Shown here piece after piece: positions 3,628 through 12,073 of a DNA stretch of 64,000 nucleotides. Position numbers and translations under genes: made by a program. Origin of the DNA: Bacteroidia bacterium (GTDB taxonomy: Bacteria > Bacteroidota > Bacteroidia > Flavobacteriales > Flavobacteriaceae); contig JAUIDI010000002.1 in assembly GCA_030428705.1 (NCBI GenBank), positions 248,001 through 312,000 on the forward strand, in the 5' to 3' direction. A model generated the notes under the pieces. It was not told where the DNA came from and made no database searches. It saw nothing but the letters and a program-made list of their open reading frames with translations. The stretch's first letter is position 1; each line of letters starts with the position of its first letter.

Positions 3628-5240
3628 TATTCAAACGATTGAAGCGGGGTGTTCATCCAATAGTCCGAACTCTTACCTTCAACACAAATTGGCTGCCGCC
3701 TGCTATCTAATGGCTCGTCTTTTAACATTAAACTATCTTTGGAAACAGTAACAACAAGGTTAGGTAATGTTTCCTGCATAAAAAATTCTCTGTATTGATG
3801 AAAGTATTCATGTTTTTTCTCATCTAACCTATTGCCTAAGCTATCTCTAATATCACCGTATGAATAGCTCAAATTAGAAACTTCAAGATTTTCATTTTCG
3901 GTAAATAAATATTCTAGTATTGAGCCTGTTTCCTTCCTTTTATAATTAGGAGTTATTTTAAAACATCTTTCACGCTCAAAAAAGCGAACTCTTTTTAAGG
4001 GCAATAACTTCTCTTTAAATTTTATTTTAAAATCATTGGTTTTTACTTTATCAACGTTTTCAGGTATTCTGTTTAATTTTACAACAAACCTTTTTGTTTT
4101 TAAATCAAGTATAAATCTTGATTTAAACTCTGAGGGCCTTTGCAGTAAAATCTTGTTATAGAAAGAGATATAATTTAAAAACATCTTCTCGTCTTCGCCC
4201 GGTACATATTCTGTAATAATATGATAAATCAACTCTTTTTTTGTTTTATTAAATCCGTTAGAATACTTTTCATCTGCATTAATTGCCGTATCAATAATAC
4301 CAGGTTTTTCCCTTTTATAAACCGCATAATCTAATTTAAAAAAAGCAAAATTTTCAGTGCTTATAAATATTTTACCCTCGGAGAAATAATCTTCATTTCG
4401 ATAAAAACATTCAATTTCATAGACCGTGTGTTCTTTAAAATTCGTTTTTCCTTTTAAGCGAAAATGATGACTTTGTAAAAAATCGACAGCCATGTCATTT
4501 ATAAAAGAAAATGTTTTTGTCTGATAGTTACGAATAGCATCATGAATCAATAAAGTAATAAATTCATTGCCTCCCGAATTTTCCATTCTAGCTCCCGGGA
4601 TCACCTTTTGATTCAATTGATAATCATAGGGTTGTTTAGCAAATGAATCTATCTTGAAATCCAAATTTTTTCTATAGGATATAAGTTGATATTCATTTTC
4701 AAAGTTGTTTTTTACATAAAAACCATTGTCGAAAACTTTAAAAACACCCTCGTTTAAATTAAAATACTCAGCATCTTTCACTTGGTAATCCCGATAATAA
4801 CCAATCAGGCCAAAATTATTTTGAGGATAGTTTTGGGGAATACTGTTGATCGCAATTTTTACGATTTGTTGCGCACTCAATCTTTTAATGTTTGCAGACA
4901 CTACTGCTTCTTTTAACTCAAAGGTACTAGGTCTTAAAATGATGATATTGCTCTGACCTTCTAATAAATCTTGAATCAAAATTTCTACACTCTTGTAACC
5001 CATGCAAGAAATCTCTATTACCTCTCCCAGTGTTTTATAACGCAATGGAATTTTAAATGTACCATCAATATTGGATATCACGCCCAATGCAGCACCTTTG
5101 ACCCTAATACTGCCGAAGGATATGGGTTCATTCTGGGTTGCATCTACCAATTGACCAAAAATGTAATCCCTGTTTTGACCAAAACTGAATATTGTAAAAA
5201 AAGTTATGACAAAAAAAACAAGCCTCCTCATACTTTTCAA
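3627..5240 (-). CDS. Secreted CarboxypepD_reg-like domain protein (paralog 1)
   Basis: 537 aa; signal peptide; IFGQLVDATQNEPISFGSIRVKG..GVISNIDGTFKIPL; ends SDYWMNTPLQSFE. Confidence 0.82.
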   Translation of the reverse strand: MKSMRRLVFFVITFFTIFSFGQNRDYIFGQLVDATQNEPISFGSIRVKGAALGVISNIDGTFKIPLRYKTLGEVIEISCMGYKSVEILIQDLLEGQSNIIILRPSTFELKEAVVSANIKRLSAQQIVKIAINSIPQNYPQNNFGLIGYYRDYQVKDAEYFNLNEGVFKVFDNGFYVKNNFENEYQLISYRKNLDFKIDSFAKQPYDYQLNQKVIPGARMENSGGNEFITLLIHDAIRNYQTKTFSFINDMAVDFLQSHHFRLKGKTNFKEHTVYEIECFYRNEDYFSEGKIFISTENFAFFKLDYAVYKREKPGIIDTAINADEKYSNGFNKTKKELIYHIITEYVPGEDEKMFLNYISFYNKILLQRPSEFKSRFILDLKTKRFVVKLNRIPENVDKVKTNDFKIKFKEKLLPLKRVRFFERERCFKITPNYKRKETGSILEYLFTENENLEVSNLSYSYGDIRDSLGNRLDEKKHEYFHQYREFFMQETLPNLVVTVSKDSLMLKDEPLDSRRQPICVEGKSSDYWMNTPLQSFE

Positions 5241-6898
5241 TTTTCATTTAAGCTTTCCCTCAACGGAGTATTCATCCAGTAATCCTTAAAATTAATCGGG
5301 CGTGTAACGGGTTGGTCTTCGAAAATCGGTTTATTCTTATCCATGAAGAAAACATCAGATGGCATTGGCATATTGGGTTTTACTTCTTGAACAAAAAACT
5401 CCCTGAATTGATGATAGTCTTTTGTTTTCCATTCGTTAAATACATTTCCTTCGATATCGCGTAAGTTCTTCAGGTCGAACTCCAACACCTCTTCATTTAA
5501 TTTTTCTTCAACTGCGAATATTTCAATATCTCTAAGTATCTGGCGCTGAATAGGTGACTTTATTTTTGGATATAACCAAACCCTTTTACCAACAACTTGA
5601 ATCGAATCAAAGTGAACATTTTCACCTTGAAACTTAGCCCTATAATTTCGAAGCTTATTGGCATATCTTTCATCAAGTCCATTAGTAAAAGTCAATTCAA
5701 AATGGCTACTTCTAACCTCTTCATTAACATTTATATCAGCCTTACGATCATCCATTCTGTCATAGTGCATTTTAAATGCCACATGGTCTAATTTGAACAC
5801 AGGGGGAATTTTTACGCTGAAATTGTTGTGGAAGGAAATATAATTCAGGAACATCTTGCCATCTTTTTCCCGATACGATGTATTCACCTCAAAAATCACC
5901 TTATTCTTACTCCCGTTTTTGTCCTTAATTCCAGTATCATTCTTCTTGGTGTCATCATAAACGGTATATTCCATTCCATAAATTGAAAAATCGGATTTTG
6001 AAATAAGTAGTCTACCATAAGCCCTATGCATACGAATTTTTTTATAAACCTTTATTGAATAAAGTGTCTCGTCATTCATATATGCATCGTCTTCTCTAAA
6101 AAATTGATGGCCTGCCAGAAAATCGTTTTGCAGTTGGTAAACAAACGAGTACGAATTTTGCCGATAATTACGAATGGCGTTATGAACACTCAGTATGGTA
6201 AATTCGTTTCCACCATATGACCTCAAATATCCTTTATCGATTATTTTTGTTTCGCGTTGGTAACTATAATCATACGGTCTACTTGCCAAAGAATCTCTTC
6301 TGAAATCAAGATTCTCTATTTGGTCATAGATCAATACTCTGGTCGTTGACGAATCGATTGCGTTGAAACCTTGATCAAAGACCTCTAAAACTGCTTCGTT
6401 CAAGTTTACATATTCCTTTTTATCCAATTGATAATCTCTATAATATCCGACCATTGAGTATGGTCTTGTCGGGTAATTTTGCAAAATGGCATCAATGGCC
6501 TTTTGAACAATTTCTTTTGGTCTTAAATTTCGGGCTTTACTTTTGGCCAAGACCGTTGCCCCTGACAATTCAAAAACTGCCGGGTTCAGGCGGATCATAT
6601 TAATTTTATCTGTAGGGAGGTCATAAATCGATAGTTCTTGTTTTTGGTAACCCATTGAAGAAATCACCAAGATATCACCCATCTTTTGGTAGACGATAGG
6701 AATTCGAAAACCACCATCAAGGTTCGATATCACCCCCACGGCCCTATTCTTTAAATAGATACTTGCAAAGACGACCGGCTCACCCGTTTTTGCATCAATA
6801 ATTTGCCCGTTAATGAAGTCCTCTTGCTGAGAAAGAACAGTATGCTGCGCCAAAAACAAAAAGAAGATAAAGAAGAGTTTAGCAAATTCTTTTCCCAT
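5237..6898 (-). CDS. Secreted CarboxypepD_reg-like domain protein (paralog 2)
   Basis: 553 aa; FINGQIIDAKTGEPVVFASIYLKNRAVGVISNLDGGFRIPI; ends KDYWMNTPLRESLNEN; 4-nt overlap with the next gene. Confidence 0.83.
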   Translation of the reverse strand: MGKEFAKLFFIFFLFLAQHTVLSQQEDFINGQIIDAKTGEPVVFASIYLKNRAVGVISNLDGGFRIPIVYQKMGDILVISSMGYQKQELSIYDLPTDKINMIRLNPAVFELSGATVLAKSKARNLRPKEIVQKAIDAILQNYPTRPYSMVGYYRDYQLDKKEYVNLNEAVLEVFDQGFNAIDSSTTRVLIYDQIENLDFRRDSLASRPYDYSYQRETKIIDKGYLRSYGGNEFTILSVHNAIRNYRQNSYSFVYQLQNDFLAGHQFFREDDAYMNDETLYSIKVYKKIRMHRAYGRLLISKSDFSIYGMEYTVYDDTKKNDTGIKDKNGSKNKVIFEVNTSYREKDGKMFLNYISFHNNFSVKIPPVFKLDHVAFKMHYDRMDDRKADINVNEEVRSSHFELTFTNGLDERYANKLRNYRAKFQGENVHFDSIQVVGKRVWLYPKIKSPIQRQILRDIEIFAVEEKLNEEVLEFDLKNLRDIEGNVFNEWKTKDYHQFREFFVQEVKPNMPMPSDVFFMDKNKPIFEDQPVTRPINFKDYWMNTPLRESLNEN

Positions 6899-7279: not shown

Positions 7280-8875
7280 TTATTCGAAAGATTGAAGTGG
7301 TGTGTTCATCCAGTAATTCTCAAAATTGACCGGGCTTGCAATTGGCTGGGCCTTATATATCGGACGATCTTTTTTCATATAAAGGTAATCGGAAGGTCCA
7401 CTGTTTTTTGGTTTGACCTGTTGGACGAAAAACTCCCTGAACTGTGTTGCACGCCAGTGTCGGCCCTCGTCAAGACGATTGCCATCATTATCTTTTAAAT
7501 TTCTTATTCTAAGCCTAAAATCACTGGGCACATCGATTCCCATCTTCCAATTTGCTTTATTCACAGCAAACCGTACTCCGTCTAACTCGGTAAATAACCG
7601 CACCACTTTGTTATTTACCTCAACCTTACGAATGTTAACTTTTTTTCCTTTAAATCGAAGATTGTATTTCTTTTTATTAATAGCCTCCGACACTTCGGGC
7701 TTAGCGGTAAAATGCACTTCATAACAAAGGTCGTCCCAATTCATGAGCATTTTTTCGACCTTGAATATAGGGTCTCGCTTGACCTGAAAATCATTACTAA
7801 CAGAGATATAGTTCAAATACATATGATCATTAACAGGTTTGTATTCTAATTGTACATCGAAAAATTTGTCTTTGGCAACCTTCGAGTAACCATATAGTTC
7901 GTTTACATTATATTTTTTACCTCCTCGGTAAAGGGCATATTCCAGTTTGTGAATTGCAAAATTGTCTTGCGAGATGAACAATTTTCCCAAAGCCCTATTT
8001 TGTCCGGTAACCTTTTTGGCGGAAACAACAAAAAGTTTCTGATTATCCAAAATTATATCGGCCTCCCTTTTGAACATATGGTTTTCCTCAAAATCGATAT
8101 CCAGTATGTTTATGTAGTCAAAAGAATTGATACTGTGATTTCTTATGGGATCATGTATTCTTAATATCATGAATTCGTTACCCCCAAAGCTATTGATTAT
8201 TGCTCCGTCGATTGTTTTTCTTTCATCTTCATAATCATACGGTCTAGCCGTGGCCGTATCGATTTGAAAGTCATTGTTTCGTCTGTAGTTATAAATCCTG
8301 GTCTTCGTGGTATTGTAATCGTTTGTGCCGAAACCGCTATCAAATACTTCAAAAAGGGCCTCATTGAGGTTTATGTATATCGAATCTTTCAATTGATAAT
8401 CACGATAATAACCAATGTATGAATAGGGCAACCTACTATAGTTAGAAAAAATACCTTTTATCGCCCTGTGAACAATCTCATCCGCCGAGAGGCCAAGAAC
8501 GTCTTCTGTTTTATTCTTTGGATTTCTGGTACCGCTAACAACAACCTCATCAAGAACTTCCAGAGCAGGTTCAAGTCTTATTAGGTTGATTTCATCGAAC
8601 TTTAGTTCTGATATTGGAACCTCTTTGGAAACATATCCCATCGAAGAAATCAGAATGCTATTGGCCGGCGTTTTGAATTCAAGTGGTATTTGAAAACTTC
8701 CATCCATGTTTGAAATGACAGCCAATGTTTGGTCCTTTACGATAATCGTTGCAAAAACTACAGGTTCATCGGTTTTTGTATCAATAAGTCTGGCCTTAAT
8801 GAATTGTTCTTCTTGTGCCGACATAATCGAAACGGAAAAAAACATCAAACACAAAATGTGCAGAACCCTACCCAT
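7280..8875 (-). CDS. Secreted CarboxypepD_reg-like domain protein (paralog 3)
   Basis: 531 aa; FIKARLIDTKTDEPVVFATIIVKDQTLAVISNMDGSFQIPL; ends ENYWMNTPLQSFE. Confidence 0.83.
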   Translation of the reverse strand: MGRVLHILCLMFFSVSIMSAQEEQFIKARLIDTKTDEPVVFATIIVKDQTLAVISNMDGSFQIPLEFKTPANSILISSMGYVSKEVPISELKFDEINLIRLEPALEVLDEVVVSGTRNPKNKTEDVLGLSADEIVHRAIKGIFSNYSRLPYSYIGYYRDYQLKDSIYINLNEALFEVFDSGFGTNDYNTTKTRIYNYRRNNDFQIDTATARPYDYEDERKTIDGAIINSFGGNEFMILRIHDPIRNHSINSFDYINILDIDFEENHMFKREADIILDNQKLFVVSAKKVTGQNRALGKLFISQDNFAIHKLEYALYRGGKKYNVNELYGYSKVAKDKFFDVQLEYKPVNDHMYLNYISVSNDFQVKRDPIFKVEKMLMNWDDLCYEVHFTAKPEVSEAINKKKYNLRFKGKKVNIRKVEVNNKVVRLFTELDGVRFAVNKANWKMGIDVPSDFRLRIRNLKDNDGNRLDEGRHWRATQFREFFVQQVKPKNSGPSDYLYMKKDRPIYKAQPIASPVNFENYWMNTPLQSFE

Positions 8876-8887
8876 ATTTATACTTTT

Positions 8888-9826
8888 CTAAAGTACGGTA
8901 AAGTAAAGAAAAATAATGTAGGCGCCTAGAAGCACCAAGCCGTCCCGCCAGCCTAAGCGGAGTCCTTTAGGTAAAAAGACCAGAGGAAGAATCAAGAAAG
9001 AAATACCCAACATCCAAAATATATCATTGGTCAACAATCCTTGATCAATAACCTTGATCGGAGTTATGATAGAGGTAATGCCCAGTACTGCCAAAAGATT
9101 AAAAATATTGGATCCAATAAGGTTTCCCAGAGAAATTGCCTTTTCCTTTTTTATCACGGCAATAACTGATGCGGCCAATTCAGGAATACTCGTACCTATC
9201 GAAACCACCGTAATACCGATTACCCGCTCACTGACCCCAAATGTCGTGGCCAGATTGACCGCCCCTTTAATCAATAATTCAGAACCACCCCATAGCGCGG
9301 CACCTCCAATCCCTAAAAAGAGAACGGTCTTATACATAGGCAATAATACATCGTCTTCGGGGGGTTCGTCGACCACGGCGGTCTTTTGAAAGCGTAGAAG
9401 GTACACCAGGAACAGAAATAGCACAATAACCATTGTGATTCCTTCATATTGTTGAAGTTCGCTATCAAAATAAATGAATCCGAAAAACAACATTGAAGCT
9501 AACATCATTACGGGCCAATCGGTCGTGTAAAAGCTTTTTCGAACATCTATGCTGCCCAAGAGAATGGTAACGGCCAATACCAATCCCAGGTTAGCGATAT
9601 TCGACCCCACAACATTGCCAAGGGCTAGGTCGGGAAACCCATCTAGTGCCGACTTAATACTGACGATTAATTCCGGTGCCGAGGTCGCAAATGATACTAC
9701 GGTCATTCCTATTACAATTTTGGGAATGTTTAAGCGCATCGAAAGTGCTACAGCAGCCTTGAGCAACCAATTACCACCGCCAATCAGCAAAACTAGACCC
9801 AAAATAATATAAAGCGCGTTCAGCAT
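8888..9826 (-). CDS. Calcium/sodium antiporter, CaCA family (YrbG-like)
   Basis: 312 aa; duplicated alpha motifs VVSFATSAPELIVSIKSAL..GNVVGSNIANL and VVSIGTSIPELAASVIAV..GNLIGSNIFNLL. Confidence 0.94.
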   Translation of the reverse strand: MLNALYIILGLVLLIGGGNWLLKAAVALSMRLNIPKIVIGMTVVSFATSAPELIVSIKSALDGFPDLALGNVVGSNIANLGLVLAVTILLGSIDVRKSFYTTDWPVMMLASMLFFGFIYFDSELQQYEGITMVIVLFLFLVYLLRFQKTAVVDEPPEDDVLLPMYKTVLFLGIGGAALWGGSELLIKGAVNLATTFGVSERVIGITVVSIGTSIPELAASVIAVIKKEKAISLGNLIGSNIFNLLAVLGITSIITPIKVIDQGLLTNDIFWMLGISFLILPLVFLPKGLRLGWRDGLVLLGAYIIFLYFTVL

Positions 9827-9894: not shown

Positions 9895-9970
9895 CACGAC
9901 ATTAAAACTATTTTTATAGTTAAATAACTATTAAAATAGTTGCTTTGTGTCGTGAATAGTAATATGTTTG
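9895..9970 (+). promoter_or_regulatory. Operator/promoter of the blaI-M56 operon: two tandem AACTAT-N4-ATAGTT dyads, outer CACGACA/TGTCGTG arms, TTG-N20-TATGTTTG promoter
   Basis: AACTATTTTTATAGTT (9906-9921) and AACTATTAAAATAGTT (9926-9941); arms 9895-9901 and 9948-9954; TTG 9940-9942; TATGTTTG 9963-9970. Confidence 0.75.
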
Positions 9971-9986
9971 GCTGAAATTAATCAGG

Positions 9987-10346
9987 ATGCTAAAATTGAC
10001 AAACAAAGAAGAAGAGGTAATGATTATACTTTGGCGGCTCAAAAAGGCCTTTGTCAAGGAAATCATGGCCGAAATCGAAGGCGACAAACCACATTACAAC
10101 ACGCTTTCTACCATCGTACGAAACCTTGAGGAAAAAAAGTACGTATCACACGAGGCTTTCGGAAATACGCATCGTTACTTTCCATTGGTAACTTTGGAAG
10201 CCTATCGCAAACGTTTTGTCAATTCTAAATTGGCCGAATACTTTGATAACTCCTATAAAAGCATGGTCTCTTTTTTTGCTAAGGAAGAGAAAATCTCGGT
10301 AGAAGAATTAAAGGAAATTATAGATCTTATCGAAAAAAAGAAATGA
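9987..10346 (+). CDS. BlaI/MecI/CopY family transcriptional repressor
   Basis: 119 aa; LTNKEEEVMIILWRLKKAFVKEIMAEIEGDKPHYNTLSTIVRNLEEKKYVSHE winged helix. Confidence 0.93.
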   Translation: MLKLTNKEEEVMIILWRLKKAFVKEIMAEIEGDKPHYNTLSTIVRNLEEKKYVSHEAFGNTHRYFPLVTLEAYRKRFVNSKLAEYFDNSYKSMVSFFAKEEKISVEELKEIIDLIEKKK

Positions 10347-12073
10347 TGGAAGCATTTTTGATCTACATAGCCAAGGCATCGTGCGTTCTAACAATATTTT
10401 ACCTTACCTATTTTACATTAAAAAGGGAGACCTTTTTTAAGTTCAATCGTTACTTTTTAATCTTTGGTCTTTTGAGCGCACTGATTTTGCCATTGATCGA
10501 GTTGACCCGGTATGTGGCCGTCGCCCCGATTACTAAAAATGTCGTTTATACTGACAATTCGTTAAATTCAACAGTCATAAACCATTCATCGAATCTTATC
10601 GATTGGACCCTTATATTTTTCATGGCCTATTTATTAGGGGTGGCATTTTTTTGCGCAAAGTTTGTTCTTCAGTTGTTGTCACTTAATAAAATGGTCAAGA
10701 CGAACACACCTTATTCTTTTGGTGGTTATAAGTATGTTGAAACTTCGTCGCGCATAGCCCCATTTTCATTTTTCAAATACATTTTTTACAATCCTACTCT
10801 ATATACCGAAAATGAACTGAAGGCCATTCTAAAGCATGAAGTTATACACAGTAGTCAATGGCATTCGGTCGACGTACTTTTGAGCCATACCGTAGCCGTT
10901 GTGACCTGGCCCAACCCTTTTAGTTGGCTGTACCAATCTGCCGTCAAGCAAAATCTGGAATTTATTGCCGACAATGGCGTAGTTCAAAACGCAAATTCTG
11001 TCAAGGGTTATCAATATACCTTGTTGAAAGTTTCTGGAAATCAGCCTTTACCTCCCCTTGTCAATACCTTTTATAATTCATCAATCAAAAAACGAATAGT
11101 CATGTTAAACAAATCAAAGTCGAACAAAATGAACATTTTAAAAGCCGCAGTAGTAATCCCTGTACTTTCCATTTTCTTGGTCAGTTTTAACACCAAAGAA
11201 GTTATTATCCCAACCGGTTACGATTTGGATTCTTCATGGGCTTTGGAAAACCCAAACGAAACGATAGAAATAATAATCAATAAAAACACCACCGACGAGG
11301 CTTTGGAAAAAGTAAAAAAAGATCTGGCCGAAAAAGATGTTGATTTTTCATATACGGTAGTACACAATGATCAAAATGAAATCATCAACATATCCATTCA
11401 AGTAAGCGGGTATGGCAATTCAGGTAGCTATAATTCAGATTCGGGTAATCCAATATCCCCCATAAAAATTGTAATCGACAAAGAAAGGGGCTTATCAATA
11501 GGAAATTCCAATGTTGATTTTGGTGGTGATAATTTTAACTTCACGATACATGAAGACGAGGATGTTTATGAAGATGGCATGCATGAAATTACCATTAAAA
11601 AAAGTAGTCGCAATAAAGGTGATGGTATGGTTTGGGTACAATCTTCGGATAAAGATCATGAAACGGTAATAATCGAAGAGACGAATGGTAAAGAAATCAT
11701 AAAAGTAAATGGTGAAGAGGTAAGCCGAGAAGAATACGAAAAAATGAAAGATGATGGTGAAATACATTCTGTACATGTCAGGAAGGGCAAAAAAGGAAAG
11801 AATGTTTTCATAATCAAGGATTCAGATGATGAACATGATATCGAAGTAATCGACAACGATGATAACAGTTTTTTCTTTATTGATACCGATGGAGATGAAG
11901 AACCTCTTTATGTAATTGACGGCAAAGAAACAAGTGAAAAGAAATTCAAAAAACTATCTCCTTCTGAAGTTGAAAAAATTGAAGTATTAAAAGGAGATGG
12001 GGCCACCAAAAAATATGGTAAAAAGGCGAAAAACGGAGTAGTCGAAATTACCACTAAAAAGAAAAACAACTGA
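10343..12073 (+). CDS. BlaR1-like M56 family metallopeptidase with C-terminal TonB plug-like segment
   Basis: 576 aa; N-terminal TM helices; HExxH (LKHEVIHSSQWHSVD); C-term YVIDGKETSEKKFKKLSPSEVEKIEVLKGDGATKKYGKKAKNGVVEITTK; 4-nt overlap with blaI. Confidence 0.9.
   Translation: MMEAFLIYIAKASCVLTIFYLTYFTLKRETFFKFNRYFLIFGLLSALILPLIELTRYVAVAPITKNVVYTDNSLNSTVINHSSNLIDWTLIFFMAYLLGVAFFCAKFVLQLLSLNKMVKTNTPYSFGGYKYVETSSRIAPFSFFKYIFYNPTLYTENELKAILKHEVIHSSQWHSVDVLLSHTVAVVTWPNPFSWLYQSAVKQNLEFIADNGVVQNANSVKGYQYTLLKVSGNQPLPPLVNTFYNSSIKKRIVMLNKSKSNKMNILKAAVVIPVLSIFLVSFNTKEVIIPTGYDLDSSWALENPNETIEIIINKNTTDEALEKVKKDLAEKDVDFSYTVVHNDQNEIINISIQVSGYGNSGSYNSDSGNPISPIKIVIDKERGLSIGNSNVDFGGDNFNFTIHEDEDVYEDGMHEITIKKSSRNKGDGMVWVQSSDKDHETVIIEETNGKEIIKVNGEEVSREEYEKMKDDGEIHSVHVRKGKKGKNVFIIKDSDDEHDIEVIDNDDNSFFFIDTDGDEEPLYVIDGKETSEKKFKKLSPSEVEKIEVLKGDGATKKYGKKAKNGVVEITTKKKNN

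Follow-up and report, generated by a model that had tools for sequence, protein, structure and literature searches.

The blaI-M56 gene pair of a Flavobacteriaceae genome studied here raises the question of what reads the inverted repeats (dyads) in front of it and what these repeats control. The window, i.e., the whole stretch of DNA that was analysed, comprises 64,000 nucleotides. In our opinion, it is very likely that the repeats represent the auto-operator of a BlaI-type repressor, which shuts off blaI-M56 by occlusion and is relieved by the M56 protein, and that a third dyad of this array, D3, has eroded in the Maribacter clade. In the literature searched, the coverage of which was incomplete, neither a report of such a three-site architecture nor a paper combining BlaI, Bacteroidetes, M56 and operator was found.

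This family of repressors is common in Bacteroidota and little studied. The data provide a testable operator code for it, with two operator classes and with residues 37 and 46 as candidates. They also define a fixed architecture of three sites, and since versions with two and with three sites occur naturally, occupancy and cooperativity can be measured.

Dyads and Promoter in the Window

A first-pass annotation of this DNA had described two dyads 20 bp apart, the second of them overlapping the TTG of a TTG-N20-TATGTTTG promoter of the blaI/M56 operon. Direct reading of the window confirmed both the dyads, with a pitch of 20 bp from D1 to D2, and the promoter (Table 1). The consensus TAnnTTTG of sigma-A in Bacteroidota is located at positions -12 to -5 (PMC9723704), and the position of this box in the window suggests that the transcription of blaI-M56 starts near 9975, with a leader of about 12 nt. 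Scans for sigma-70-type promoters and intrinsic terminators gave no excess over shuffled sequences.

The dyad pair is far beyond chance, because none of 14,000 Markov-shuffled upstream regions contained two dyads scoring 9/10 or better and spaced 20 bp apart. The exact sequence AACTATN4ATAGTT occurs twice in the 4.16-Mb genome, as D1 and D2 only, and a search for the tandem pair with up to three mismatches in its 20 specified bases gave one place, versus none for the reversed control.

Table 1. Location of the operator, promoter and gene features in the window.
Feature	Sequence	Position	Strand	Remarks
Divergent Ca2+/Na+ antiporter		8888-9826	-	PF01699 and TIGR00367 above cut-off
Antiporter's own box	TATATTTG	9848-9841	-	
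Left outer arm	CACGACA	9895-9901	+	Judged incidental
Dyad D1	AACTATTTTTATAGTT	9906-9921		Predicted distal operator; centre about -61 from the inferred start site; read from sequence
Dyad D2	AACTATTAAAATAGTT	9926-9941		Ends on TT of the -33 TTG; centre about -41; read from sequence
-33 element of blaI promoter	TTG	9940-9942	+	Read from sequence; TTG/TTTG at the same place in relatives
Eroded D3 slot	TGTGTCGTGAATAGTA	9946-9961		4/10; between -33 and -7
Right outer arm	TGTCGTG	9948-9954	+	Judged incidental; in the left half of eroded D3
-7 box of blaI promoter	TATGTTTG	9963-9970	+	Bacteroidota sigma-A type TAnnTTTG; N20 after TTG
blaI		9987-10346	+	BlaI/MecI-family repressor, 119 aa; ATG at 9987; PF03965 (Penicillinase_R) 102 bits, cut-off 22.6
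M56 metalloprotease		10343-12073	+	576 aa; HEVIH at 10835-10849; PF05569 44 bits

A Three-Dyad Array in Relatives and Its Erosion

Conservation was studied in 81 blaI sequences, namely that of the window and those of 80 relatives, with the register of the array anchored on the promoter. The array was found directly at blaI in 70 of them, and the conservation of the dyads upstream of orthologous blaI genes, which the annotation had proposed to check, was thereby established in a fixed promoter register. In these 70 promoter-proximal arrays (L027 re-registered), D1, D2 and D3 reach at least 8/10 in 67, 70 and 60 cases, respectively, and D2 is perfect (10/10) in 58. The end of D2 carries TTG or TTTG in 64 arrays, and in all 70 a sequence matching at least 5 of 6 positions of TAnnTTTG follows the start of D1 at a distance of 57 or 56 bp. 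In ten of the other 11 loci, the array, complete or partial, is found 1.1-2.8 kb upstream, where it precedes an additional first gene or a further blaI-M56 pair; for the remaining one (L030), upstream DNA is limited to 554 bp. Since D3 is kept in most relatives, the typical promoter has three dyads, with D3 filling the spacer between -33 and -7. Judging from these loci, the usual array across Flavobacteriaceae is one of three dyads at a 20-bp pitch, and the two dyads of the window, described earlier as a doubled operator, are indeed present but constitute a reduced form of this conserved triple array.

Blind genome searches led to the same loci. A 56-bp triple pattern (two mismatches) matched in 67 of 151 Flavobacteriaceae genera, at one place in each, versus no matches for the reversed pattern in these 151 genera. 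Forty places were inspected, and blaI was located within 500 bp in 37 of them, of which 32 had TAnnTTTG at exactly +57 and 31 a divergent antiporter gene. At the other three, TAnnTTTG at +57 faces one intervening gene, encoding a lipoprotein-like protein (L222, the only one with blaI seen behind it), a serine-hydrolase-like protein or a protein without a name. With the pair pattern (two mismatches), 34 of the 61 genomes searched gave matches, most of them in front of blaI. No match to the triple pattern was found in the window's own genome. As a separate observation, a near-identical two-mismatch match (AACTGGACAAATAGTTGAATGACTA...) is repeated in several genomes (G014:C1:88249 and 2202827, G030:C49:41).

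In the window, the left half of the D3 slot is gone, and the right half is mostly kept (TAGTA for TAGTT). In the BlaI tree, which has few columns and many open forks, the window belongs to a clade of seven rows with an SH-aLRT value of 97. The D3 scores in this clade are 4, 3, 3, 6, 4, 8 and 2 of 10, and D3 is still 10/10 in a neighbouring Maribacter group. Parsimony, with scores of 6 or less called lost, gave three changes overall, one of them in Croceitalea, and the loss is heaviest in the window's Maribacter clade. Based on these scores, D3 is considered to be eroded in the Maribacter clade holding this genome, where two good dyads are left.

BlaI, Its M56 Partner and Neighbouring Genes

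The BlaI protein matches the MecI/BlaI structures 1sd6, 1okr/1sax and 1sd4 along nearly its full length. Its recognition-helix region is PHYNTLSTIVRNLEEK (about 10089-10136), and P35-T42 is invariant in an alignment of 20 sequences. The features of a BlaI/MecI autoregulatory operator were found together, i.e., a PF03965 gene directly downstream, an adjoining M56 gene with HExxH, and conserved inverted repeats overlapping the promoter. Assignment of the protein to CopY/TcrY was rejected, as the equivalog gave 40.8 bits versus 121.95 and the protein contains no cysteine, hence no CXC motif.

The start of the M56 gene overlaps the stop of blaI by 4 bp, and all 81 loci have an ORF with HExxH downstream of blaI. 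No penicillin-binding sensor domain was matched in the M56 protein by Pfam at E<=0.001, and PF07715 at its C-terminus was just under the cut-off. With a model of the C-terminus (mean pLDDT 70, pTM 0.38), no match in the fold search reached E 0.001, and a plug match alone made sense: the segment of about 11864-12040 was aligned with the plug of RagA over 52 columns (46% identical, rmsd 1.6, probability 0.98, E 0.39). In the model, the M56 tail resembles a TonB-receptor plug, located where BlaR1 has its penicillin-binding domain. The window does not fit the class of BlaR1 beta-lactam sensors, its operon consisting of blaI-M56 only, with no matched sensor domain and no beta-lactamase or PBP gene. 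With no penicillin-binding domain matched in the M56 protein, beta-lactams should not be taken for granted as its signal, and the signal of BlaR1 is not transferable to this system.

Beyond the antiporter gene, the minus strand of the window carries two adjoining ORFs (5237-6898 and 7280-8875; 553 and 531 aa), which are paralogue-like and have a similar N-terminal domain.

Operator Classes and the Recognition Helix

Many PF03965 genes of Bacteroidota have ACTA-N6-TAGT dyads. Their tandem pitch is 20 in three families of the window's class, its own included; in two more families it is 21 or 22, and pairs spaced by 17, 18 or 34 also occur. In the same scan, a second set of genes was found to have a CTACA-N2-TGTAG operator, and many genes had neither class. 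The canonical TACA-N2-TGTA core is absent from the operator of the window, whose half-site is AACTA-N6-TAGTT, and the TACA class is present in other BlaI paralogues of Bacteroidota, including paralogue 4 of the same genome.

When the proteins were grouped according to the operator detected, Y37 occurred in 25 of 28 ACTA-class versus 0 of 9 CTACAnnTGTAG-class proteins, and R46, present also in MecI, in 1 of 28 versus 9 of 9, a covariation that is confounded with ancestry. This comparison suggests that the operator class goes with residues of the BlaI helix, positions 37 and 46 being candidate specificity residues. As predicted, paralogue 4 (L019), which has the second helix type, carries CTACATTTGTAG at -62, shortly before a TATGTTTG box. 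For two other proteins with this helix (L184 and L188), neither operator class gave a good match.

Proposed Mechanism and Alternative Explanations

It is very probable that BlaI binds the dyads. According to the proposed mechanism, a BlaI homodimer would occupy each AACTA-N6-TAGTT dyad, and the 20-bp pitch would put the dimers on about the same face of DNA. They would shield the -33 element and the DNA upstream of it and, where D3 is intact, the -33/-7 spacer, so that RNA polymerase would have no access to the blaI-M56 promoter. On sensing a signal, the M56 membrane metalloprotease would then inactivate BlaI in the manner of BlaR1 and raise the expression of the operon itself. The geometry alone favours occlusion, because D2 is placed on -33 and D3 in the spacer. 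This placement, typical of repressors and seen for D3 in most relatives, as well as the repression exerted by known BlaI, MecI and CopY proteins (PMC3305447, PMC7253601), makes it very improbable that the dyads serve activation by an upstream-bound activator, although D1 does lie upstream of -33.

It may also be supposed that the array is a shared operator, through which BlaI coordinates the divergent antiporter as much as blaI. The antiporter gene is indeed near blaI in 51 of 81 loci, and it is divergent in 31 of the 37 blaI-linked loci found blindly. However, the register of the array is fixed to the -7 box of blaI, the array persists in Flavobacterium species, at whose blaI loci no antiporter was detected, and the TATATTTG box of the antiporter is about 57 bp from D1, beyond simple occlusion; we regard this explanation as unlikely. 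Much smaller still is the chance that a different regulator reads the dyads and controls blaI. Since related ACTA-N6-TAGT dyads are also present at BlaI paralogues of this genome, cross-binding is conceivable, but the array accompanies blaI also where the operon begins with another gene, and the class of the operator correlates with the helix of BlaI. As for the outer arms, previously noted without an explanation of their role, their exact 7-bp copies do bracket both dyads. Nevertheless, neither arm was found within 300 bp upstream of blaI in any of 80 relatives or in the two congeners looked at, an exact 7-bp inverted repeat with a gap of 30-70 bp arises in 47% of cases when this intergenic region is shuffled, and the centre of the arms (9924.5) is 1 bp off that of the two dyads (9923.5). 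The arms were therefore rejected as a functional element, and a second functional inverted repeat at this place has a negligible probability.

Comparison with Known Systems

The auto-operator reading has its closest parallel in Clostridium thermocellum, where EMSA showed the binding of BlaI proteins to GACTAT/GTCTAT half-sites and the operons of these proteins carry paired dyads (PMC8457756). BlaI_1845 and BlaI_0696 of this bacterium share with the system proposed for the window the autoregulation of the BlaI family, near-identical half-sites, ordered dyad pairs before a BlaI/BlaR1 operon and a small regulon (PMC8457756). In contrast, their operators have two dyads rather than the three conserved at a strict 20-bp pitch in relatives of the window, they belong to another phylum with another promoter type, and the authors tie the system to beta-lactam sensing (PMC8457756).

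The bla-mec systems of Bacillus licheniformis and Staphylococcus likewise contain a dimeric BlaI/MecI repressor with an M56-type partner, and BlaI of B. licheniformis has three operators, OP1-OP3, but these systems differ in a TACATATGTA-type core, a divergon with blaP and a BlaR1 having a penicillin-binding sensor domain (PMC3305447). Multiple BlaI dyads being already known from B. licheniformis and C. thermocellum, it is the strict three-site array that is the variant. CopY/CopR belong to a homologous repressor family, often with two operators near one promoter, such as the two 21-base repeats of the S. pneumoniae cop operators, and no cooperative binding of CopY was seen at two close operators (PMC7253601). 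For BlaI of the window, cooperativity between the dimers, as inferred in the first-pass annotation, is hypothetical. The CopY/CopR systems differ in having two operators instead of the three usual in relatives of the window, as well as a KACANNTGTA core and a copper-binding CXC motif, both absent here.

A broader idea, which we consider speculative and rather improbable as a whole, is that three helically phased dyads, normally forming one array per genome throughout the family, act as an all-or-none switch with a steep response and control a closed loop of their own. The main output of this loop would be its own M56 protease, sensing an envelope signal via the plug-like tail; lineages would tune the switch through gain and loss of dyads, as in the loss of D3 by Maribacter, and a serine hydrolase or other envelope genes would sometimes be recruited.

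Regulon and Recruited Genes

The genome-wide search proposed in the first-pass annotation revealed no regulon beyond the operon in this genome. The single-site pattern was not enriched there (26 versus 42 matches for the reversed control), and among the 24 further places with one mismatch, none was conspicuous as a promoter site.

In another genome, G060, three further double dyads (L259, L260 and L261) are located just upstream of TATATTT-like boxes, and the genes behind them encode an esterase (PF00756), a CarboxypepD_reg-like protein and a DUF6624 protein. These extra dyads indicate that the recruitment of other genes can happen, and a possible expanded regulon may exist in this one genome. 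Of eight loci scanned in relatives, six have a gene for a beta-lactamase-family serine hydrolase (PF00144) as the extra first gene at the array; in other cases the array faces another hydrolase or a redox protein. Operons with PF00144 first at the array were found in L020, L026, L033, L040, L049 and L117, some of them with TPR repeats.
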